From positions 1 to 26,245 of the IMG/VR virus record IMGVR_UViG_3300042691_029036: a stretch of DNA of 26,245 nucleotides; one strand, given 5' to 3'. A program made the translations under genes and the position numbers. The notes under the pieces were generated by a model. It made no database searches. It saw only the letters and a program-made list of their open reading frames with translations, and was not told the DNA's origin. The stretch is from a virus. Shown here one piece after another: positions 2,028 to 14,032 of the stretch (its first letter is position 1; every line of letters begins with the position of its first letter).

Positions 2028-2480
2028 TCACATGTGCAGAATGTCTTCTGGGTCGTTTATTGTGGCTAAAACCTCGTCATCGTTAAGAATCCGGATTTCA
2101 CCCCCGTCAATGGCCATACGCGCACCCGCGTAACGGCCAAAAATAATCCAATCCCCCTTCTTGCACCAAGCGCCAGTAGGGAATTTGACTTCGTCCTTGT
2201 AGGCCAATGGGCCAGTTGACAAAACGTAAGCACATGTGGTCGTAAGTTGTTGGCGGTCAAGCGTTTGATCCGATAGTTCAATTCCGCCTTTGGTTTTCCG
2301 CGCTCCACGGTACGGTAAAACAATCACCCGCCAACCCGTTGCCACAGGAAGGTGTTTTGAAATAGTTTCAACTTGATCTTGACGGTCTTTTTTGGCCTTA
2401 GACAATGCAAGCGCATTGGCAGCCTCATCTTCTTTGGCAGCTTGTGCCCATTTTGTTTCTAGCGCAGTGGTTTCTGTCAT
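2028..2480 (-). CDS. GroES-like co-chaperonin with N-terminal extension
   Basis: About 150 residues from the ATG at 2480. A longer form could start at 2492, but GAGGG lies 5 bases before 2480 whereas the 2492 start has no good SD site. The first ~45 residues are a charged, Ala-rich probable helix. The rest matches the co-chaperonin fold: GWRVIVLPYRGARKTKGGIE carries the GGI mobile-loop signature, followed by VLSTGPLAYKDE, CKKGDWIIFGRYAGARMAIDGGEIRIL-type strands and a short tail. GroES is about 97 residues, so this is an extended form. Co-chaperonins cap the GroEL ring, and phage versions (T4 gp31 is the classic case) help the host chaperonin fold coat protein. Its place next to portal and scaffold genes supports this role. 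Confidence 0.85.
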   Translation of the reverse strand: MTETTALETKWAQAAKEDEAANALALSKAKKDRQDQVETISKHLPVATGWRVIVLPYRGARKTKGGIELSDQTLDRQQLTTTCAYVLSTGPLAYKDEVKFPTGAWCKKGDWIIFGRYAGARMAIDGGEIRILNDDEVLATINDPEDILHM

Positions 2481-2488
2481 GTTGGCCC

Positions 2489-2674
2489 TCATTGATTGGA
2501 ATTCTTGCTAAGAAGCTCTCTTACAGCTTCCTCAACAAAACGAAATCCCTCTAGACGGCCCATCAAAAACCTGTACTGCTCCATATCCCGCACTGAACCA
2601 GACAAAATCATATCGCCCGTTTGTTTTTCAAGGCGACGAATTGCTGTCAACACAGTTTCTGAAAACTCAAGCAT
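2489..2674 (-). CDS. Small conserved phage protein beside portal gene
   Basis: 61 residues, largely helical and charged: an N-terminal TAIRRLEKQ helix, a central GSVRDMEQYRFLMGRLEGF segment and a C-terminal FVEEAVRELL helix. The pattern of Tyr/Phe, a short turn, then GRLEGFRFVEEA resembles small proteins that sit beside portal genes in many podoviruses, with no known function. GGAG lies before the ATG at 2674. It is followed 8 bases later by the co-chaperonin start. Confidence 0.65.
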   Translation of the reverse strand: MLEFSETVLTAIRRLEKQTGDMILSGSVRDMEQYRFLMGRLEGFRFVEEAVRELLSKNSNQ

Positions 2675-2740: not shown

Positions 2741-2884
2741 TTACGTAATCTTTACCTTGTTAAAAGCGTCTTTTCTGTAAATAAATGTAGGTCCCGGTTG
2801 TTTTTTTGCCTTTGGAGGCACCTTAGGCATGGGACTTTGTGGTTTTTGCATCATTTTTTGTGGCATTTTTGGTTTATTGCGCAT
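2741..2884 (-). CDS. Small Lys/Pro/Met-rich basic protein
   Basis: 47 residues, starting MRNKPKMPQKMMQKPQSPMP and ending FIYRKDAFNKVKIT. AAGGAG lies 6 bases before the ATG, one of the best SD sites in the head module. The start overlaps the last codons of the portal gene by 11 bases, so translation is probably coupled. It is strongly basic, with no predicted membrane segment. The unstructured N-terminal half with repeated Lys-Pro/Met-Pro steps suggests a nucleic-acid or portal-contact tail, but the function is unknown. It is easily missed because it is short. Confidence 0.6.
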   Translation of the reverse strand: MRNKPKMPQKMMQKPQSPMPKVPPKAKKQPGPTFIYRKDAFNKVKIT

Positions 2885-5249
2885 TTCTGGCTCCTTGATT
2901 TGACATTTTTGCAAGATCAGCCTGCATTTTTTGAGTTTGCAGCATTAATTTAGCCTGACTTTCTTGTTGATCAGCCTGTTCTTTCTGTTGTGAAAGCTGC
3001 AACTCTGCTTGATCTAGCCCGCTCTTAGCCTGATCGCGCTTAGCAGACTGCTCCAACTCTTGTTTCTTGAGCGCAATCAATGGATCCTCTTGATTGCCTG
3101 CCCCTGACAGCTCTTCTCCCAATTTTTTAACTTCTTGGAAGCCTTGCGCCACCTTCACAGCAATCATTGCCTCACGTTGTAGTGCAGAAACTATTCTTTC
3201 CGGATCAGTACCATATTGCTTAAACAACTCTGCCTCTATGTCCTCTTCCGCCTTCAGTCGGATGTGGTCAAAAATATGTTTTTGCAAACTCACAGCAACG
3301 TTTGGCATCCCCTGCATCAAAGGAGACATTCCAAACAAAAGATGGGTCATGATGTGCGCATCATGCTGCTGACCAGCAAACGCTTTAAGCGGAGAACCGT
3401 CCAGCGCCTGTGAGTTTTCACTTGCGGGATCCTTAGGCTTATCCACATTCTGTGTGTTTAAAATCTGATCGATATCTCGCACACCAATTGCCTCATACAT
3501 ACGGCGATAGGCTTCGTACATATTGTGCATCTGTGGTGCGCTTTGTGCTAACTGCAACTGGGTCTGCGCCATAGTGATGCGCTGAGCAACAGAGAAAATA
3601 TTGGGGTCAGAAACAGGCAACACATCGATGCGATCATCGAAGTCCATCCTCTTAATAACACGACTCTCGCCCGGTACATCGTACGGATACTCATCGGGTA
3701 GAAAATCTGCAAAGCCCTTGGCGAGCAGTTGAAACTCCAGCTTTTGGCTGTAGTGCAACCGCTTGTGGATGGCCGACATGACCGAGCTGCCCTTCTCAAG
3801 CAACGCAATCGTCGTTCCCACAGCAGCATTTTGATTGCTGTCACCAACCTGCATGTCCGTAATGCTCGCCATGCGCTGACCAGCAGTAACGCAAAAACCA
3901 AGCAACGTCATTAACGTTTGGCTAGGCTCCTTATACGGCAACGGCAGCAAAGATGATTGCAACTCCATGCCGCCCGCGTCCATGTCCCGCCACTCACCCG
4001 GCTGAATCGGCACATCATCGTTCATGATCCGTGCGCCTTTAGCCTTGAAGCCCGCAGGCAGATTCACCAACGTACCGGCATCGAGCAATTGTTGCAGTGC
4101 AGCAGTAGCGGTTTTGGACAGGTTACCAACCAAGTGCAAGAAACCAAGACCGTACGCGCCAAGCCCCTGCACCAAACAATAGTGGACATAGTACTGCTTG
4201 CGAATAAACAGCTTGTCGCCTTCATTCCAGTTACGACGAATGCCAACTACATCCCCCGTGCCCTCATCTACAGTAATGATGTACGGCTGCGCAATACCAG
4301 TTATCTCACCATCCTCATCCTTATGCTCAAACCCCATAATCTCATAATCTAACTGGAACTCCAAAAGGCTAATCTCCTCCTCTTCATCCGTAGGAGACAT
4401 GCCCGTTGCCTTGTCTACAGCTTTTCTGATCGTGCTCTCGCTCATGTTGCCATAAGACTGTGGCTGAGCAGCATCTAAATACTGACCACGGGCCACGGCT
4501 TTTTTGTATTCATTCGTGGTCATGGGAACGCGGTGAATAATTCGCTCGCATTCGCTCATCACCGAGCTGCCCTGATACGGGATATACAAGTTGTCTGGCA
4601 GCACCAAGGCACTTACCATGCGCCCTTTGTTCTCGTCGTAGTACACTTTCTTAAAGGTAGAGCCGCCGTAGCCGGTGTAGAAAAGCAATTGGTCAAACTC
4701 AGGCGTGTACTCTTCCATCACCGAAGTGATCTGGTAGTTCATAAAATCGCGCACGCGGTTGGCCTGCATTACCTTTTCACGTGTTTCCTTACCCAGCACT
4801 CGCGTGCGCACGGGGCCGTCCGATGGCATCAACTCTTTTAGTGCGGTAGCCTGAAACTGCACAATGCTCTCGGTAAGCAGTGGATGGCTCACGCCGCTTG
4901 CGCCCTTAAACGGTTTGGTGCGCTCTTCCATGCTGAAGCCCAGCAACTTCATGCCCTTGCTGTACTGGTCTTCCCAGTCTTTTCTAGAAGACTTGTCCGC
5001 CTCAAACAACAACATCAAATCGCTGCTGATCAACGTAAGCACGTCGGTATCAACAACTTCAGCCAAGTTGGCATCAAAGGGCACATCTGCGTCTGCTTGG
5101 TCGCCAATGTTTACCACGACCTCGCCGGTCGCTGTGTCAAACTCAATCTCAATTTCAGGCATTTCTTCCAGCATTTCCTGTGCAGAAACTTCTACGTCTA
5201 CTCCGCCTTCGGGGTAGTCATCGCCTGTGATGCGTTTTTCAATTGGCAT
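2874..5249 (-). CDS. Portal protein, P22-like
   Basis: 791 residues. An acidic N-terminus is followed by the portal core, with recognisable segments FKGASGVSHPLLTESIVQFQ (about 115-135), EYTPEFDQLLFYTGYGGSTF (about 178-198), VLPDNLYIPYQGSSV and a long C-terminal Gln/Lys/Ala-rich coiled coil. These segments fit the large portal family typical of P22-like podoviruses (P22 portal is 725 residues). The protein forms the dodecameric ring at one capsid vertex through which DNA is packaged and ejected. AAGGA precedes the ATG at 5249. It lies 9 bases after the 1436-residue gene and overlaps the small basic gene. Confidence 0.9.
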   Translation of the reverse strand: MPIEKRITGDDYPEGGVDVEVSAQEMLEEMPEIEIEFDTATGEVVVNIGDQADADVPFDANLAEVVDTDVLTLISSDLMLLFEADKSSRKDWEDQYSKGMKLLGFSMEERTKPFKGASGVSHPLLTESIVQFQATALKELMPSDGPVRTRVLGKETREKVMQANRVRDFMNYQITSVMEEYTPEFDQLLFYTGYGGSTFKKVYYDENKGRMVSALVLPDNLYIPYQGSSVMSECERIIHRVPMTTNEYKKAVARGQYLDAAQPQSYGNMSESTIRKAVDKATGMSPTDEEEEISLLEFQLDYEIMGFEHKDEDGEITGIAQPYIITVDEGTGDVVGIRRNWNEGDKLFIRKQYYVHYCLVQGLGAYGLGFLHLVGNLSKTATAALQQLLDAGTLVNLPAGFKAKGARIMNDDVPIQPGEWRDMDAGGMELQSSLLPLPYKEPSQTLMTLLGFCVTAGQRMASITDMQVGDSNQNAAVGTTIALLEKGSSVMSAIHKRLHYSQKLEFQLLAKGFADFLPDEYPYDVPGESRVIKRMDFDDRIDVLPVSDPNIFSVAQRITMAQTQLQLAQSAPQMHNMYEAYRRMYEAIGVRDIDQILNTQNVDKPKDPASENSQALDGSPLKAFAGQQHDAHIMTHLLFGMSPLMQGMPNVAVSLQKHIFDHIRLKAEEDIEAELFKQYGTDPERIVSALQREAMIAVKVAQGFQEVKKLGEELSGAGNQEDPLIALKKQELEQSAKRDQAKSGLDQAELQLSQQKEQADQQESQAKLMLQTQKMQADLAKMSNQGARNAQ

Positions 5250-5258
5250 GTTGTGTCC

Positions 5259-8200
5259 TTAAATATATCTAGCAGTGCTGGTCTGGCGTTCTACCATACC
5301 ACCTTTGGCAAAGCCACCAAGGGGACCAAAAATATTTTCATATGCTTGTTGAACAAGGGAAGTGGCATCTTTTTTTTCTCCTACTACGTATTGAGAACCG
5401 TTATTTAGTCTAACCGCTTCTTCTCTGACATCTTTAAAAAAGCTTTTTAAATCTAGTGCTTGGCCCAATGGTACGGAGTCTGCCAACCATTTTGGAGTGC
5501 TTTTTGGAATTTCTACCATTCCCAATTTGTCAAGCGCATGAATCCCCTTAAAACCACCGTATTGATTTTCAAGCAATTTAACTTGTTCTTGAATAGCTGG
5601 AAGTGCGCGATTGGTTAAAAAGTCTTCCTTGTTGTCTTTTTCTTTTATGTCAGTAATAGAGTACTCTGGTCGGCCAGCAGAGTCTTTTCCTATTTGTTCT
5701 ACACTAACTTGAGCAACGGGCCTTGCATTTTTTTCTGTTCCAGTGACCAGTACATGCAGTTGGCTTTTTCCACTGCCATAGCTTAAAGCATTAACTTCTT
5801 GTGACGTGCACCACCCGCCATCACATCCTACATCAGTAATAAGAGATTTATATTCTGGGTTTTTAACAGGGTCAGGAAGCGCGACACTTATATACTTTCC
5901 ATCCTGCAAAGAATTTCTTGTCAGTCGTGGGTCTTCACGTAAAGCTGACGTAGCCATGCGTGCTCTAGTCTCATCTTCCCATCTTGTAAATCGAGCTACA
6001 CGATTAGAAACTTCTGCAAGATTAAACCTCGGTAAAAGATCATCGGGAAGCGTAAAGTCTCTAGGTATCGCCTGAGCAGGTTGTCCATAGGCTGAGTATT
6101 CCGGGCCTATTTGTCGAATGCGCAACATGTCTTTACGCAACTCAGAAAGCTTTAAAAGTTTGTCTGCGGCTGGAGCAATTTCGCTGGCCCGCGCTTCAGG
6201 GTTGGTTTTTAAAAACTTCACTAAACTTGGGGGAATCTGATAATCTAGGGCGATATCTTGTATTTGTAAAGGATAAACGCTCTGGTCTATTATATCTTCA
6301 ATGCGCTTTCCATACGGTGTTTTTGCTTCGCCTTGAGTAGAAAACCCCTCTGACCCTCGTACAGCCTCTACATATCTCCTATCGCCCTCTTCTGTTTCTC
6401 CTTTTTTTGATTCAAAGTGCAACAGCTTGCCCTGATCTGCTGCTTTTACAAGCTGATCTTCTGGTGTTGCAAAATCTTTACGAAGATATCTAGGAATGGT
6501 TTTATTAAACCATTCCCCTACTATTGGATCATTCCTTAAATTTTCCATAGCGGCTGTTCCGGGAACCGGACGCATTTCATACCTAACCAATTGCTCAGGG
6601 TCGTCTATGGGCCTGATAAAGTTTTTGTACTCTTCTGTGCCCTGCATTGCTCTATCATCAAAGAAATTAACGTCTGGATATTTTTCTCTAAAAGCTGCTT
6701 TTTCGGCCTTACTCATTTCATCAATAAACCCATCAACTGATGTATCAGGCCTTTTTGTCATAACAAAAGGGGTGCCTTTGTTTCGGACAGCGTACGATAC
6801 GTCCGCTGGACCAAGGGCTTGGTTGTACGCTTGAAAATCCTCGGCCAACATCTGCGCTGCTTTTTTACCCTTAGTAACCGCCTTCACACCCGAACGCACA
6901 GCACTAGCAGGATTCACGACACTTGAGCCAAACTCACCCATCATGTAAAAACCTGCGTCCCGGGGGTCCGTGGGAGGAGCAGGGCGAATACCTGCTTCAG
7001 TAGCCAACCGTTTTAATTGCGCACTGCCCCCCGTAGGCTCCTTGGAATCAAGACCAAATGGCATCAACGCCAAATTACCTATGTCCGCCGCACCTCCAAC
7101 TACGTTGTATGGGGTTTCCGTTACGCCTTGCAAAATATTCTTAAGGTTGCGAGCCGCGCCAGCGCCCACTTCCTTCAGCGCTTGCAACGCCTCCGCTGCC
7201 TTGAATTCTTTGCCCTTTGATAGCGTATCTGAAGTAACAGGACCACTATCGGGCACGCCAAAAGGGTCTTGGAAATATCCTACCTCGCCTGTTTCAGGGG
7301 AACCTTTAGCGCGTTTGATTGGGAAAGGACGATAAGAGGTGCCGTACTCGTTCTCTCCAGTTAGGTTTTTTTGGATAAAACGAAGTGCAGGGTTTTGCTG
7401 ATACGTGTAGGAAGGAACAGGCGTGTGTGGAGGCAGGTCGCGTGCATCCATGCGGGTTTGACGGGGCCCGGTCAACGCGTCATAAACCGCCATCATCCTT
7501 GTATTGGGAAACAATTCCCGCATCTCCGGGTCTTGCGTCAAGAACTTACCCGTGGTTTGCTCCAAGGCAGACAACGAAGCCAACTGCTCACTGAACATGG
7601 CTTTGGTTTTGCCTAACTTTTTTAATTCATCGTACGAATCTTTGCGGAAATAAGCGTTGTCCACAGGTCTGCCAAAAAACTTTTCCAGCTTTTCACGGTT
7701 GTCCACCATGTTTTTAACTGTTGCTGTTATAGGACTCCAATCATCGCCCATCAAGCTGTAAGCACGGTAGTTGTTGTCCATGCCGCCCATCAAAGCAAAG
7801 TTGGGACGACCATATATGTCCCCGCCCTTCGCATCCATGCTGTGTTCCAACTCATGCAACGTGGTAATTTCCCGCTCCGCAGGAGTTAGCCTAAAGTTTA
7901 AATTAAGGGTGTCCGGGTTACTCGGTGTTATGTACCCACGCGTGTCAAACCCCAAATTGCCAGTGACCGATTTAACAGCAGGATTCATTGCTTCCGTGTA
8001 TGCTTTTAGTTCTTTTGCGCTGCGGGAAACGGGGATATCCAAGCCCTCCACCGACGCTGCCCTGTCTTCCATAATCTGCGGGTCACCGCTTTCTACCTGC
8101 CCGCCTTCGGCAAAAAACTTATTTATGCTCAGACCATAAGCTTTAGGGTCCATGGCAACGCTTAACGCTATCTGCCGTCTTCCTGCGTCCGCCTTGGCCG

Positions 8201-9569
8201 CTGCCATTTTGGCGTTGTATGCCTCCTGACTAACCGCCGGACCAGTTGGAGCTTTTTGCGCAAACTCCGCTGGCTTTGTAGGCACTAGCCCACTAAACTC
8301 AGCCGGAGCCGTCGGGGTCGCCATGCTAAATTCTTTTGGCGCTACCGGAGCCGCCATGCTAAATTCTGCTGGCGCTACAGGAGCCCTTGCAACAAGGTTC
8401 TGATATTCCCTTGACATGACATACGAGGTTGGCTTAGGTGTCGCAAAAACACTAGCATATTCCGCGTCATATTTCTTCTTCGCAGCTTCATATGGAGCAT
8501 AAACATCTGTGTTGTACTTATTCAACGCCGTATTGTATGCATCTACCTGAGTTTCATACGGGGCATAAACATCCGTCTTGTACTTATTCAACGCAGCGTT
8601 ATACGCATCAATTTGCGCTTGATACGGAGCAAAGTTTTCAGTTTTGTACTTCTCCAACGCAGCGTTATACGCATCTACCTGTGTTTGATACGGTTTGTAC
8701 ACGTCCGTGTTGTACTTCTCTAAAGCCGTGTTGTACTCCGCCACCTTGGGCGCAAACGCATCATATTCCGCTTTAATCGCATCCAACTCCGCACGGGCAG
8801 AAGGACGCACCGAAGCAGTGGGAGCAAAAGGTAACCCGCCCGCCGCCATGCGAACAGGACGCAAAAAAGATACCTGCTTGCGAGTAACCGGCGCAGCCTG
8901 CGCCTGTACCTCAGGAAAAGGCGACTGATAACCTAAATCTAACTCAACAGGCTTAGAAACTGTCGCTGCCAACATCCTCTCGGATTCACTCGGCGCATCC
9001 TCATCCTTGCCCTCTTTCTCCCCCTCGTCCGCTAACAGCGATACAGCAAACGCCGCCTGATAACTTGGTCCGAGCTGCGCGAACATGGGATTTTGCGCAG
9101 GGTTAAACGCCGTCTTCTGCACCTGCGCCTTAACAGGAGTTGCCTTGGGTGTCGCCTGCGCCAACTTGGTAGAACCAAGCGAGCCAGTAATCTTGGTTAC
9201 ATAGTTCCGCGTCTCCGCCGGTAACTTATTAAAGTCACCACCCTTATCCAACCACTTGTCCGTGTTCCCCGGCCCCCAGTTATAAGCAACCAAGGCAGTC
9301 TTCGTGTCGCCATACCGCTTGACCATGGCATCCAAATAATCTCTACCCACCCGGGCCCGCTCGTCAGGACTGTCATCCTTGGCAGGCTTGACCCCAAAAC
9401 CGGGATCCTTGTTCGTCATGTCCAAAACCTGCATCTCGCCCTTAGCAGTACCATACTTGGTCTGCGGGCCCTCAAGCAAAGTCTTACCATCCGCCTTATA
9501 ACGACGGCCTCCGCTTTCTTGCTGCTTGACAGCTTCTAATAGTTCTTTGGAAGACGGTTCTTGGGCCAT
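5259..9569 (-). CDS. Giant multidomain protein: lytic transglycosylase plus HExxH-type domain, probable ejected virion protein
   Basis: 1436 residues. Residues 1-130 look like a soluble lytic transglycosylase: catalytic Glu18 in QQESGG, GEMQV near 44-48 and ALVAYNWGPGNTDKWL at 92-107. Residues 279-366 hold four 22-residue repeats and residues 397-440 four 11-residue repeats. HELEH at 572-576, after an ITTL strand, resembles a zinc metallopeptidase motif. Residues about 800-900 are Gly/Ala-rich and hydrophobic (TPYNVVGGAADIGNLALMPF), a possible membrane-inserting part. Near 1245-1290, DVGCDGGWCT...LHVLV...PVAQVSVE resembles PcfJ-like or other large-polyvalent-protein domains (weak). Polyvalent proteins are known phage and plasmid toolkits delivered with DNA. 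A place between large terminase and portal, instead of with tail genes, is unusual. It has its own predicted promoter, and GAAGGA lies 9 bases before ATG. Transglycosylase is likely, metallopeptidase plausible, delivery inferred. Confidence 0.75.
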   Translation of the reverse strand: MAQEPSSKELLEAVKQQESGGRRYKADGKTLLEGPQTKYGTAKGEMQVLDMTNKDPGFGVKPAKDDSPDERARVGRDYLDAMVKRYGDTKTALVAYNWGPGNTDKWLDKGGDFNKLPAETRNYVTKITGSLGSTKLAQATPKATPVKAQVQKTAFNPAQNPMFAQLGPSYQAAFAVSLLADEGEKEGKDEDAPSESERMLAATVSKPVELDLGYQSPFPEVQAQAAPVTRKQVSFLRPVRMAAGGLPFAPTASVRPSARAELDAIKAEYDAFAPKVAEYNTALEKYNTDVYKPYQTQVDAYNAALEKYKTENFAPYQAQIDAYNAALNKYKTDVYAPYETQVDAYNTALNKYNTDVYAPYEAAKKKYDAEYASVFATPKPTSYVMSREYQNLVARAPVAPAEFSMAAPVAPKEFSMATPTAPAEFSGLVPTKPAEFAQKAPTGPAVSQEAYNAKMAAAKADAGRRQIALSVAMDPKAYGLSINKFFAEGGQVESGDPQIMEDRAASVEGLDIPVSRSAKELKAYTEAMNPAVKSVTGNLGFDTRGYITPSNPDTLNLNFRLTPAEREITTLHELEHSMDAKGGDIYGRPNFALMGGMDNNYRAYSLMGDDWSPITATVKNMVDNREKLEKFFGRPVDNAYFRKDSYDELKKLGKTKAMFSEQLASLSALEQTTGKFLTQDPEMRELFPNTRMMAVYDALTGPRQTRMDARDLPPHTPVPSYTYQQNPALRFIQKNLTGENEYGTSYRPFPIKRAKGSPETGEVGYFQDPFGVPDSGPVTSDTLSKGKEFKAAEALQALKEVGAGAARNLKNILQGVTETPYNVVGGAADIGNLALMPFGLDSKEPTGGSAQLKRLATEAGIRPAPPTDPRDAGFYMMGEFGSSVVNPASAVRSGVKAVTKGKKAAQMLAEDFQAYNQALGPADVSYAVRNKGTPFVMTKRPDTSVDGFIDEMSKAEKAAFREKYPDVNFFDDRAMQGTEEYKNFIRPIDDPEQLVRYEMRPVPGTAAMENLRNDPIVGEWFNKTIPRYLRKDFATPEDQLVKAADQGKLLHFESKKGETEEGDRRYVEAVRGSEGFSTQGEAKTPYGKRIEDIIDQSVYPLQIQDIALDYQIPPSLVKFLKTNPEARASEIAPAADKLLKLSELRKDMLRIRQIGPEYSAYGQPAQAIPRDFTLPDDLLPRFNLAEVSNRVARFTRWEDETRARMATSALREDPRLTRNSLQDGKYISVALPDPVKNPEYKSLITDVGCDGGWCTSQEVNALSYGSGKSQLHVLVTGTEKNARPVAQVSVEQIGKDSAGRPEYSITDIKEKDNKEDFLTNRALPAIQEQVKLLENQYGGFKGIHALDKLGMVEIPKSTPKWLADSVPLGQALDLKSFFKDVREEAVRLNNGSQYVVGEKKDATSLVQQAYENIFGPLGGFAKGGMVERQTSTARYI
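8250..8381 (-). repeat. Four 11-residue (33-base) Pro/Ala repeats inside the giant protein
   Basis: Residues 397-440 read as PVAPAEFSMAA, PVAPKEFSMAT, PTAPAEFSGLV and PTKPAEFAQKA, followed by a degenerate PTGPAVS. A Pro-x-x-Pro-x-Glu-Phe core is kept in every copy. This looks like a flexible linker or repeated short binding motif between the helical repeats and the HELEH region. Confidence 0.9.
8472..8735 (-). repeat. Four 22-residue (66-base) repeats inside the giant protein
   Basis: The units start YNTALEKYNTDVYKPYQTQV, YNAALEKYKTENFAPYQAQI, YNAALNKYKTDVYAPYETQV and YNTALNKYNTDVYAPYEAAK, and cover residues 279-366. The Tyr-Asn...Lys-Tyr...Pro-Tyr spacing is constant and the substitutions are mostly conservative, so the array is maintained as protein. 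A helical hairpin or coiled spacer is likely. Confidence 0.9.
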
Positions 9570-9619: not shown

Positions 9620-9647
9620 ATTCTACTGATGCCGGTCAAGGTGTCAA
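9620..9647 (-). promoter_or_regulatory. Predicted sigma70-type promoter for the giant protein gene
   Basis: On the minus strand: TTGACA (9642-9647), 16-base spacer, TAGAAT (9620-9625). Predicted start near 9613. The leader then forms a stem-loop at 9589-9603 (6-pair stem with one G-U, 3-base loop), followed 4 bases later by GAAGGA (9579-9584) and the ATG at 9569. Confidence 0.6.
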
Positions 9648-9650
9648 CAC

Positions 9651-11120
9651 TCAATAATACTCGTACCTGTTTTCTGCAACCGCAGGCTCATCATCCTCGT
9701 CATCAGCCAAAGCAATAAAGTTGCCCTGACGAAAACGCATCCAAGCCATTACCGCTGAGTCCACCTGATCATCATGCGCCCCATTAGGAAAAGCAGCACA
9801 CTCCTCAACCAACTCCTCCGCCCACTCTACATCTTCCGGGTACCAAATCATCCCCGACTCAAGGAGCGGAGCAACAGCATTGGCACGACTTACCTTGTCC
9901 TGACCACTCCTCCTGCCTCCCGGGCTGTACATCGTCACAGGAATTCCAATCTTACGCAACTCCTGCTGTAACGGCGTGCCCGTTGCCTTCGCCTCAATCA
10001 AGACATTGTCAGGATTCCAATACACATACTCCGCCTTGGCAATGCGCTTGAGCTCCGGGAAATCCCACCGGCCCTTTCTTACCCCTAACAAAATTAAATT
10101 AGGACCGGAATCCGAATCAGGCACAAACACACCCCACGTACTGATCACAGAAAAATCAGCACTCTCCTTCTTACTGTACGCCGTGTCATACGTCTGTATC
10201 AAATACTCACAAGACGGCGGCTCCTCAGACTTCCACTTGCGCCACCACTCACGCTTTAATATGGCTCCCTCATCATTCGTCGGGGCCTGCTGCCACTGCG
10301 CCTGCCACTTCTTCATGCCAATGGAAACCTTGACCTTCTCTAACTCATCAAGGCTCCAGTACCCGGGCCACAAAGGGTTTCCACTGGGCAAAATGGCAGG
10401 GAACTCGATCACCTCCCACTGGTCCGACTTCAACTGACCCTGCTGGCGAAGTAAACGACCACTTAGGTCATCCGTTTTCCAACGTGTATTGATGACGATG
10501 ATTGAGCCGTTTGGCTGTAACCGCTGACGAGGGCCCGACGTGTACCACTCCCACGTGTTCTCCATGGCAGTATCTGACAACGCATCCTGCTCATCCAAAA
10601 TATCATCAAGGATCACGATATTACCGCCACGACCGGTCATCGCGCCGCCCTTACCGATGAAAAAGGCTTCACCACCACCCTTCGTGTTCCACCGACCAGC
10701 AGCCTTAGAGTCAGCAGACAAACCAACAGTTGGGAAGAGTTCTTTGTATCTGTCCTCGTCTACCAGATTACGGATCATGCGACCGAAGCGCTGCGCAAGT
10801 TCCGCCGTGTGCGAGCCAACAATGAGCTTGCTGTCGGGGATTTTTCCCATGACATAGGCCGGGAAGAGGTAGCTCCCAAGCTGGGACTTCCCATGCCGAG
10901 GAGGCATAGCAATCATTAAGCGCTTGCACTTGCCAGCAATGACGCGGTCAAAGGCTTGCGCAATAATTTTATGGTGTTCCCCAACGAGCATCTCGGGCCA
11001 GACGTACTTGCAGAAATCAAGAAAGCTGGTGGTGGCTTTTTCTTGGGCCTCCAGTAGCTGGAGGCGTAGTTCTAATCGGAGGCGCTCGGCTTCGACATCT
11101 TGTTGTTGCGTGTTACTCAC
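9651..11120 (-). CDS. terL: Terminase large subunit (packaging ATPase/nuclease)
   Basis: 489 residues, GTG start. The ATPase domain has Walker A PPRHGKS (73-79), Walker B IVILDD (168-173) and a motif III-like NTRWKTDD. The C-terminal RNase H-like nuclease has Asp312 in YIQTYDTAYSKK, Glu377 in VLIEAKATG and the HDDQVDSAVMAW motif (449-460). This is the full-length family size. It translocates DNA into the prohead through the portal and cuts the concatemer. AAGG lies before the GTG. The usual small-subunit partner is not adjacent: it is encoded about 4.7 kb upstream at 15849-16508. The gene has its own predicted promoter. Confidence 0.95.
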   Translation of the reverse strand: MSNTQQQDVEAERLRLELRLQLLEAQEKATTSFLDFCKYVWPEMLVGEHHKIIAQAFDRVIAGKCKRLMIAMPPRHGKSQLGSYLFPAYVMGKIPDSKLIVGSHTAELAQRFGRMIRNLVDEDRYKELFPTVGLSADSKAAGRWNTKGGGEAFFIGKGGAMTGRGGNIVILDDILDEQDALSDTAMENTWEWYTSGPRQRLQPNGSIIVINTRWKTDDLSGRLLRQQGQLKSDQWEVIEFPAILPSGNPLWPGYWSLDELEKVKVSIGMKKWQAQWQQAPTNDEGAILKREWWRKWKSEEPPSCEYLIQTYDTAYSKKESADFSVISTWGVFVPDSDSGPNLILLGVRKGRWDFPELKRIAKAEYVYWNPDNVLIEAKATGTPLQQELRKIGIPVTMYSPGGRRSGQDKVSRANAVAPLLESGMIWYPEDVEWAEELVEECAAFPNGAHDDQVDSAVMAWMRFRQGNFIALADDEDDEPAVAENRYEYY

Positions 11121-11391: not shown

Positions 11392-11425
11392 CACATGAGA
11401 AAAATTTTGTCAAGTGAAAAAAAAC

Positions 11426-11447
11426 AATCGGCGCGGTCGCGCCGATT
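11426..11447 (-). terminator. Intrinsic terminator (second of tandem pair)
   Basis: Perfect 10-pair stem AATCGGCGCG/CGCGCCGATT with a 2-base centre, followed on the minus strand by G then eight T residues. Confidence 0.8.
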
Positions 11448-11496
11448 AACTTTGCCTATGATTCTCTAAGCTGTTGATTTATAAGGGGAAAGTAAA

Positions 11497-11524
11497 AAAG
11501 CCCAGACTGTACAGTCTGGGCTTT
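11497..11524 (-). terminator. Intrinsic terminator (first of tandem pair)
   Basis: Perfect 28-base palindrome with 14-base arm AAAGCCCAGACTGT, running into T residues on the minus strand (about six Ts, then ACTTT). It lies 38 bases beyond the stop of the gene at 11563-12024 and ends that transcript before the terL control region. Confidence 0.8.
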
Positions 11525-13075: not shown

Positions 13076-14032
13076 TTAAGCCGCGAGCAGCTCCATGGCA
13101 CGATTTTTAATGGCTGCACCCGTGCCGAACCACGCCGATTCGAGCCTTGTATTGTCACTGCGTCCGCGTTCGTGGTCTACTAATTCTGTTACCGCGTTAA
13201 GCATTCCCCAGCGCGTGCCGGTGACACCCGCAATATCCGAACCGATAGCCGAACCTTCAAATAATTTGATTATTCGTTTATATGCCCGTGAATCGGTGAT
13301 ATCTATTTTGCCCGTATGGTAAGGCTTGAGCAGCTCGGCCACAAACGCGTCCGCGTCATCCGCGCCCATGGTTACGCCCGCCAGCCTGCGCGAGTCAACT
13401 AAAAAGCGCTCAAAATTATTGGCCACAATGCCCAGCTCTAGGCGCACCGCGTCCGCGTCGAATCGTTCGCTGTGCAGCACGCGAACAGAGGCCGTATTGT
13501 CCCCCAGCGCGGCCGTGATAGTGTTATTGCATACCACGCGCACCGTGGTGAATTTTGCCACTGTGGCCATTGTTCCATCATATGACGTACCCAGCAACAA
13601 ATAAGGCTTGACGGTGTCACCGTCCACAATGTCCGCGCCAGCGCCAACGGATGCCAGCGCCCAAACGCGCCGCCCGTAACTCAACGCGCCCGCAGTTTCC
13701 AATTGAAACCCGCCAAGCTTTACCAAGTTGTCAAAAAACCCCATAACCTCCGCAGGCTGCACCACGTGGTAACCGTCCGAAACAACGGCCAAAGGTGCGC
13801 CGGTGTCGCTACGGTGTAAAACCTTCCGGCCTTTGAACACCTCCGGCGCAGTAGCGGAGGGGTGACGGAATAAAACCGGACTCTCGAGCACTGTATAAGC
13901 CAAACCGGCTTCGCGTGTCCAAGTTGTGATATCCGCATCCGCGCTTAAAGCTTGGCCTAAACCGTGCCAAGGTGTTTTGCCTGCATATGCAATTGCATTT
14001 GTGCCGGTGGTGTTATCTATCATGTGAGCCAT
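13076..14032 (-). CDS. DUF932-family phage/plasmid protein
   Basis: 318 residues. The N-terminal NAIAYAGKTPWHGLGQAL signature (about 13-30), VSDGYHVVQPAEVMGFFDNL (about 84-103) and VRVVCNNTITAAL with FERFLVDSRRL later are typical of the DUF932 (phage/plasmid-like TIGR03299) family. The family occurs on phages and plasmids and its biochemical role is not established. The length is normal. ATG at 14032 follows the weaker motif GAAAGAATAG. It is a separate transcription unit: promoter at 14090-14117, leader stem-loop at 14061-14080, terminator array at 12859-13048. Confidence 0.88.
   Translation of the reverse strand: MAHMIDNTTGTNAIAYAGKTPWHGLGQALSADADITTWTREAGLAYTVLESPVLFRHPSATAPEVFKGRKVLHRSDTGAPLAVVSDGYHVVQPAEVMGFFDNLVKLGGFQLETAGALSYGRRVWALASVGAGADIVDGDTVKPYLLLGTSYDGTMATVAKFTTVRVVCNNTITAALGDNTASVRVLHSERFDADAVRLELGIVANNFERFLVDSRRLAGVTMGADDADAFVAELLKPYHTGKIDITDSRAYKRIIKLFEGSAIGSDIAGVTGTRWGMLNAVTELVDHERGRSDNTRLESAWFGTGAAIKNRAMELLAA

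Follow-up and report, generated by a model that had tools for sequence, protein, structure and literature searches.

Polyvalent proteins of phages and conjugative elements combine several unrelated enzymatic domains in a single chain, including zincin-like metallopeptidases and lysozyme-type domains, and they are encoded in the neighbourhood of head and packaging genes and are extensively shuffled (Iyer et al., 2017; PMC5512222). The layout reported for their metallopeptidases consists of a helix, three strands, a helix with HExxH, and a helix with a Glu (PMC5512222). The antirestriction proteins DarB and DdrB of phage P1 are very large, are packaged in the head, and carry a short terminal packaging signal, and darB (ORF 10) adjoins the portal gene (ORF 11; PMC9024508). 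The internal proteins of phage T4 are otherwise divergent injected proteins that have a short tag in common, the capsid targeting sequence (PMC9026906). Few such head-loading tags are known, and those of T4 and P1 are both N-terminal. The window analyzed here (26,245 nucleotides, positions 1 to 26,245 of the IMG/VR record IMGVR_UViG_3300042691_029036) originated from an uncultured aquatic bacterial virus and contained an open reading frame (ORF) for 1436 residues with an ATG start (5259-9569, minus strand), flanked by the terL and portal genes. Uncultured podovirus-like phages of a large group have a dedicated polyvalent locus (hereafter, the slot) with a highly mosaic makeup, of which this ORF is one allele. 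The product of the ORF is probably a multi-effector protein that is made with the head genes and delivered by the virion, entering the host together with the DNA. Polyvalent proteins are already known; what is new here is a short motif, [FRYM]AxGGxV, at the module borders and a C-terminal tail built on it.

A mosaic polyvalent locus between terL and the portal gene

A portal-based scan retrieved 80 related loci. The relatives were nearly all metagenomic fragments, and some loci represented one contig fetched twice, in which case the duplicates were dropped by C-terminal identity. Named relatives by portal included phage DSL-LC04, which was the nearest (64% identity), the Pelagibacter phages HTVC027P and HTVC023P, Roseobacter phage CRP-901, and Caulobacter phages. 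The terL-portal slot gene of DSL-LC04 carries the annotation "PcfJ-like protein"; no paper on DSL-LC04 and no wet-lab data for any member of the slot family were found in the literature searched. The slot of uncultured relatives usually encoded a protein of ~600-1800 residues that was made of alternating modules. Among 114 distinct and sufficiently complete slot proteins, an SLT domain was present in 60, a zincin in 64, a Gly/Ala linker in 72, a C-terminal region of the GGWCT type in 45, and another PcfJ type in 10, and these modules occurred in many combinations. For example, the slot protein of locus L004 contained a zincin that was 78% identical to the one in the window, yet it differed at both termini, with DUF4214 repeats at the N-terminal one. 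Weak matches just under the Pfam cut-off were observed to ART-PolyVal in the L091 protein (E 8.9e-6) and to GNAT in the L077 protein.

The sequence-only reading of the window had described a polyvalent-type protein, and this architecture was borne out. At least two disparate domains occurred in one chain, namely three unrelated enzyme-type domains (SLT, zincin, and PcfJ-like/GNAT-like). The gene was located in a packaging and head neighbourhood, between terL and portal, and the locus was strongly shuffled, with effectors such as a metallopeptidase or, judging from the weak ART-PolyVal match of one relative, an ART in the set. In the predicted model of the metallopeptidase, the HExxH helix followed a three-stranded sheet and a Glu was situated on a later helix.

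The AxGGxV motif and the C-terminal tail

The motif [FRYM]AxGGxV occurred at two kinds of sites, namely the junctions of modules and the C-terminus, where it forms a tail. The 1436-residue protein contained internal copies at residues 241 and 486, as well as a degenerate copy, RAKGSPETGEV (~753-763), which closes the zincin module. Internal copies numbered 151 in 127,860 residues of slot proteins, compared to 3 in 186,542 residues of controls (408 terL, portal, and downstream ORFs) and approximately 9 in shuffled slot proteins. Homology breakpoints between slot proteins, defined by the ends of BLAST alignments together with a 12-residue identity rule, lay 10 residues or less from a motif in 49% of the cases (n = 112) and in 51% after stricter redundancy removal (n = 39), against an expectation of 3-4%; the maximum for the latter set was 15% in 1000 draws. 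Because the motif had been spotted on the slot proteins before counting, the weight of these figures rests on the comparison with controls and not on the raw counts.

A near-identical tail, [FRK]AxGG[MSA][VI]ERQ..DNRRYL or RYI, closed slot proteins with several unrelated preceding domains, and the tail of a second phage group was FAxGGxV...KLI. These two forms were present in 104 of 145 distinct slot proteins (89 with the first, ERQ..RYL, and 15 with the second, KLI), a different GGxV was located among the 30 C-terminal residues of another 14, and the remaining 27 had none. The 408 controls contained neither form (21 had another GGxV and 387 had none). In the cases read in which the slot was split into two ORFs, both were tail-bearing. 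The recurrence of the same glycine-glycine tag, which bounds and usually caps unrelated modules, suggests a shared delivery signal.

Two other explanations of the motif were considered. The first is a processing site: a protease, either the zincin or a different one, would cleave the polyprotein at the intermodular [FRYM]AxGGxV copies, whether prior to injection or following it, and the tail would simply be trimmed away. This agrees with the position of the motif copies at module borders, with the zincin self-processing that was proposed for polyvalent proteins (PMC5512222), and with the fused zincin ending in RA[DNG]GGEV exactly where the stand-alone protein ends in FADGGAVERQ..YL and a stop codon. 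On the other hand, many slot proteins (e.g., that of L051) harbored the motif without an HExEH module, and the additional conserved end residues of the tail (ERQ..RYL or KLI) would not be needed for cleavage; a processing site thus appears rather unlikely. Given these extra end residues and the unrelated carriers, a docking or packaging tag is tentatively preferred over a cleavage site. The second explanation is a by-product of recombination, in which the 3' end of the gene would be carried along by the conserved portal gene and crossovers would merely take place at the DNA of the motif, and 90 of the 97 tail-bearing ORFs were indeed immediately before the portal gene. However, the third codon positions of the tail varied widely while the protein sequence was kept, and the codons differed mostly at silent sites (pS 0.65, pN 0.25), which indicates purifying selection on the tail. 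Moreover, seven tail-bearing ORFs were not directly before the portal gene, and the examples that were read had another such ORF in between. A mere by-product is therefore considered improbable.

The motif was also observed in other arrangements. The DSL-LC04 protein carried three AxGGxV copies at its N-terminus and no C-terminal tail, and in L095:9379-11856 and L004:1526-6628 the copies were likewise clustered N-terminally, with the usual tail absent. In L174:2948-3730, a 260-residue protein encoded between the metallopeptidase and portal genes, and apparently unrelated to the metallopeptidase, had FGGRVKLI at its C-terminal end, suggestive of a common tail.

A predicted zincin metallopeptidase module

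The HELEH motif that had been flagged as metallopeptidase-like lies in a region (residues ~486-763) that was predicted with high confidence to form a zincin metallopeptidase, an outcome that favors the earlier reading. In an alignment of 36 diverse modules, H572, E573, E575, H576, and E661 were invariant, and a TGxRQTRxDxRDL segment was conserved. In the structural model (pLDDT 80, core above 90), a helix and three strands preceded the HExEH helix, and E661 was located on a helix farther along the chain, which is the arrangement reported for polyvalent metallopeptidases (PMC5512222). The nearest solved folds were zincins or relatives of zincins, namely a Mycobacterium tuberculosis regulator (6cyy, Z 7.2), IrrE/PprI (Z 6.8), ArdC (Z 6.7), and lethal factor (Z 6.4). 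The Z values are intermediate, and no significance was reached with Foldseek by itself; however, a zincin is consistently indicated by the invariance of the motif, by where it lies in the fold, and by the concordance of the best matches. A profile search of the PDB with the zincin alignment yielded no significant match (IrrE at E 1), and tblastn against isolated phages with a stand-alone relative as query yielded no match. A scan of genome contigs with the same alignment gave one match, L217 (JAURGV010000253.1, 54% identity). This 3.4-kb contig was binned with a Rhodothermales metagenome-assembled genome; it is probably phage DNA, and its link to that host is uncertain.

In the second phage group (L151, L153, L158, L163, L166-L170, and L172), an HExEH protein of ~250-280 residues stood alone, encoded by a separate gene between terL and portal. 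Such a stand-alone protein would also suit an alternative in which the slot protein is an assembly factor that works inside the infected cell instead of being delivered, with the zincin as a head-maturation protease, and the interval from the portal gene to the major capsid gene showed no prohead protease gene of its own. However, the zincin was absent from the slot proteins of many close relatives, and the slot was empty in others. Furthermore, an assembly enzyme would not be expected to be fused to a transglycosylase and exchangeable effector-like domains. A role in head maturation is regarded as quite improbable.

A divergent PcfJ-like region with a predicted GNAT-like core

The C-terminal GGWCT was located in a region (residues ~1005-1412) that is related to PcfJ-like proteins. 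The PcfJ-like proteins of DSL-LC04 and L074 were both detected with a hidden Markov model (HMM) that was built for this region and extended on slot proteins. With hhalign, the GGWCT rows were aligned to HSVGGY-type slot proteins (prob 97, E 9e-11) and to the DSL-LC04 protein (prob 99.4, E 5e-21, 355 columns), which placed GCxGGWC on HCVGGYC. Since the 1436-residue protein had no direct Pfam match to PF14284 (PcfJ-like) up to E 1, the region is called a divergent relative of PcfJ-like proteins and not a member. PcfJ-like domains also occur in conjugative plasmids.

The model of the GGWCT region (pLDDT 86) matched PcfJ-like proteins in the viral fold database BFVD (E 1e-14). The PDB matches of residues ~1206-1412 were GNAT acetyltransferases, with a Foldseek prob of 0.99-1.0, yet an E of ~0.005, and VIA on this core returned GNAT-type folds in its top 50 rows (HAT1, Z 8.6). 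The acetyl-CoA motif Q/RxxGxG/A was not found at the corresponding place, which by eye reads ITDIKEKDN in the 1436-residue protein and QxKGxxN in PcfJ-type relatives. The GNAT assignment of the modeled core is likely but not settled, and given the missing motif the core may or may not be catalytically competent. A profile search of the PDB with the PcfJ-type alignment gave no significant match, tblastn of the GGWCT region against isolated phages gave no match, and no paper linking PcfJ with GNAT was found in the literature searched. The sequence-only reading had suggested that the unassigned stretches of the protein might hold undescribed domains. This was not upheld, as these stretches consist mostly of the zincin (486-763) and the PcfJ-like/GNAT-like region (1005-1412) and hence represent divergent domains of known kinds rather than wholly undescribed ones.

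Proposed function of the slot protein

From the computed domain architecture, zincin signature and fold, PcfJ relation, mosaicism, tail conservation, and association of breakpoints with the motif, we infer a virion location, injection, enzymatic activities, and a role for the tail. The polyvalent effector would be synthesized with the head genes, packaged in the virion, and injected alongside the DNA. Its N-terminal transglycosylase may help to breach the peptidoglycan, the zincin may cut the polyprotein itself or a host target after release in the host, and the PcfJ-like, GNAT-like C-terminal region may act on a host factor. The locus serves as an exchange slot in which phages swap modules at short linkers of the [FRYM]AxGGxV type. 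The copy conserved at the C-terminus (FAxGGMVERQ..DNRRYL or FAxGGxV..KLI) most likely acts, though at modest confidence, as a tag that docks or packages whichever protein the slot encodes. It is conceivable, though doubtful, that the tail is a transferable C-terminal capsid-loading tag with which a large phage group loads any effector of the terL-portal slot and that PcfJ-like domains are GNAT-like transferases.

Several observations weigh against this explanation. The terL-portal interval of CRP-901 and Caulobacter RW did not contain a large gene. Among the Pfam families, M78 and M90 matched the zincin only in some members and at E about 0.003, which is weak by sequence. The 27 tail-less slot proteins included the DSL-LC04 protein and most of the PcfJ-type ones, and the tail is thus not an essential signal in all of them. 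Finally, the motif could be a mere flexible linker or a recombination hotspot beside a conserved gene.

The conservation of the tail on unrelated cargo beside the portal gene makes a simple and direct test case for C-terminal loading, and the tail alone could serve to mine metagenomes for injected effectors. The GNAT-like core also offers a structural hypothesis for the uncharacterized PcfJ family.

Gene context and other features

The features of the gene are listed in Table 1. The large ORF noted from the sequence is real, and a 49,235-b viral contig carried an identical copy, indicating that the gene is not an assembly accident of the record. The flanking genes matched phrog_38 (terL, 9651-11120, E 3.6e-115) and phrog_1216 (portal, 2874-5249, E 7e-41). 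The location before the portal gene had been considered unusual; capsid-like, tail-type, and other large genes, including those of the internal type, were indeed situated elsewhere on the 49,235-b contig, but P1 darB provides a portal-side precedent (PMC9024508). The proposal that the gene has its own promoter was retained in part, as a candidate promoter based on sequence pattern. A similar box was found at the equivalent position in many relatives with a gap between terL and the slot gene (most commonly TTGAGT-17-TAAAAT), whereas slot genes that overlapped terL by 4 nt had no good promoter box, except one (9/12 matches).

The SLT domain was the only one recognized by a Pfam scan of the 1436-residue protein (PF01464, residues 6-114, E 1.7e-10, 41 bits against a curated cut-off of 21.3), in agreement with the lytic transglycosylase predicted from the sequence, and this module was present in 22 of 37 diverse locus proteins. 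A phmmer search of the protein against the PDB gave no useful match, and the matches listed by tblastn of the whole protein against isolated phages all fell on the SLT domain. Both repeat arrays noted earlier were recovered by Tandem Repeats Finder (TRF). Pfam matches of the repeats to apolipoprotein and scaffold families (E 0.1-0.2) were judged to be coiled-coil-like noise, and PADLOC matches to LmuB (over the repeat array) and HEC-01B were weak and judged to be due to chance. The hydrophobic Gly/Ala part exists as a Gly/Ala-rich stretch, but its best 19-residue Kyte-Doolittle mean was just 1.09, which is not typical of a membrane segment, and a transmembrane reading was rejected.

Elsewhere in the window, the head gene cluster contained a gene for a GroES-like co-chaperonin (2028-2492, minus strand; phrog_3188, E 2e-16), which the named relatives also possess. 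Two strong intrinsic-terminator-like hairpins upstream of terL (11425-11524, minus strand) would mark off the head operon from the genes farther upstream. A DUF932 protein (E 2e-55) was encoded at 13076-14032 (minus strand), in the stretch between the small and large terminase genes.

Table 1. Features of the slot gene and its product, with positions in the window.
Feature	Position	Strand	Evidence
Mosaic polyvalent-type protein, 1436 residues	5259..9569	-	ORF and homologous locus in relatives
Sigma-70-like box TTGACA-16-TAGAAT (candidate)	9620..9647	-	In 81-bp gap after terL; 11/12 matches
SLT lytic transglycosylase, residues 1-132	9174..9569	-	PF01464; QESGG...GEMQ...AYNWGPG kept
Conserved follow-on segment, residues 133-247, ending in motif copy MAAGGLP (241-247)	8829..9173	-	Module A2 HMM
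22-residue repeats, residues ~285-360	8490..8717	-	TRF: 66 bp x 3.5
11-residue Pro/Ala/Glu/Phe repeats, residues ~395-445	8235..8387	-	TRF 8319-8385, 33 bp x 2; extent from translation
Predicted zincin-type metallopeptidase module, residues ~486-763	7281..8114	-	Alignment A3, model, and fold matches
Motif copy FAEGGQV (486-492), module start	8094..8114	-	Homology breakpoint maps beside motif copy
HELEH, residues 572-576	7842..7856	-	HExEH invariant in 36 sequences
Glu661, candidate third metal ligand	7587..7589	-	Invariant; E176 of A3, model helix 172-188
Gly/Ala-rich linker module, residues ~806-892	6894..7154	-	Internal segment most widely shared
Divergent PcfJ-like region, residues ~1005-1412; core 1206-1412 predicted GNAT-like	5334..6557	-	HMM, hhalign, model
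GGWCT, residues 1251-1255	5805..5819	-	Cys1254 invariant; aligns with CxGG[WY]C of PcfJ-like proteins
C-terminal tail FAKGGMVERQTSTARYI, residues 1420-1436	5262..5312	-	Common to proteins of unrelated domain content

Comparison with known systems

The slot protein resembles the polyvalent proteins of phages and conjugative elements in all of the general properties outlined at the beginning, but differs from them in three respects: its zincin is of the HExEH type with a conserved TGxRQTRxDxRDL segment, its C-terminal effector is PcfJ-like, a name that does not occur in the main text of that paper, and the AxGGxV motif is situated at module borders and ends (PMC5512222). Among solved structures, IrrE/PprI (M78) and ArdC are among the closest folds to the zincin, but the PDB search gave no significant sequence match to them, and they occur in other contexts. 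The PcfJ-like protein of DSL-LC04 (OR003939, WJZ48068.1) occupies the same terL-portal locus and is homologous to the GGWCT region, whereas it is 825 residues long and contains no SLT or zincin module. The likeness to DarB is limited by the N-terminal position of the P1 signal (first 30 residues) and by P1 being a contractile-tailed phage with a prohead protease (PMC9024508). Similarly, the T4 internal proteins bear their tag, of about 10 residues, at the N-terminus, and gp21 removes it (PMC9026906), whereas the tail described here is C-terminal, with no cleavage known. As a putative C-terminal loading tag, the tail is proposed to resemble the cargo peptides of encapsulins.
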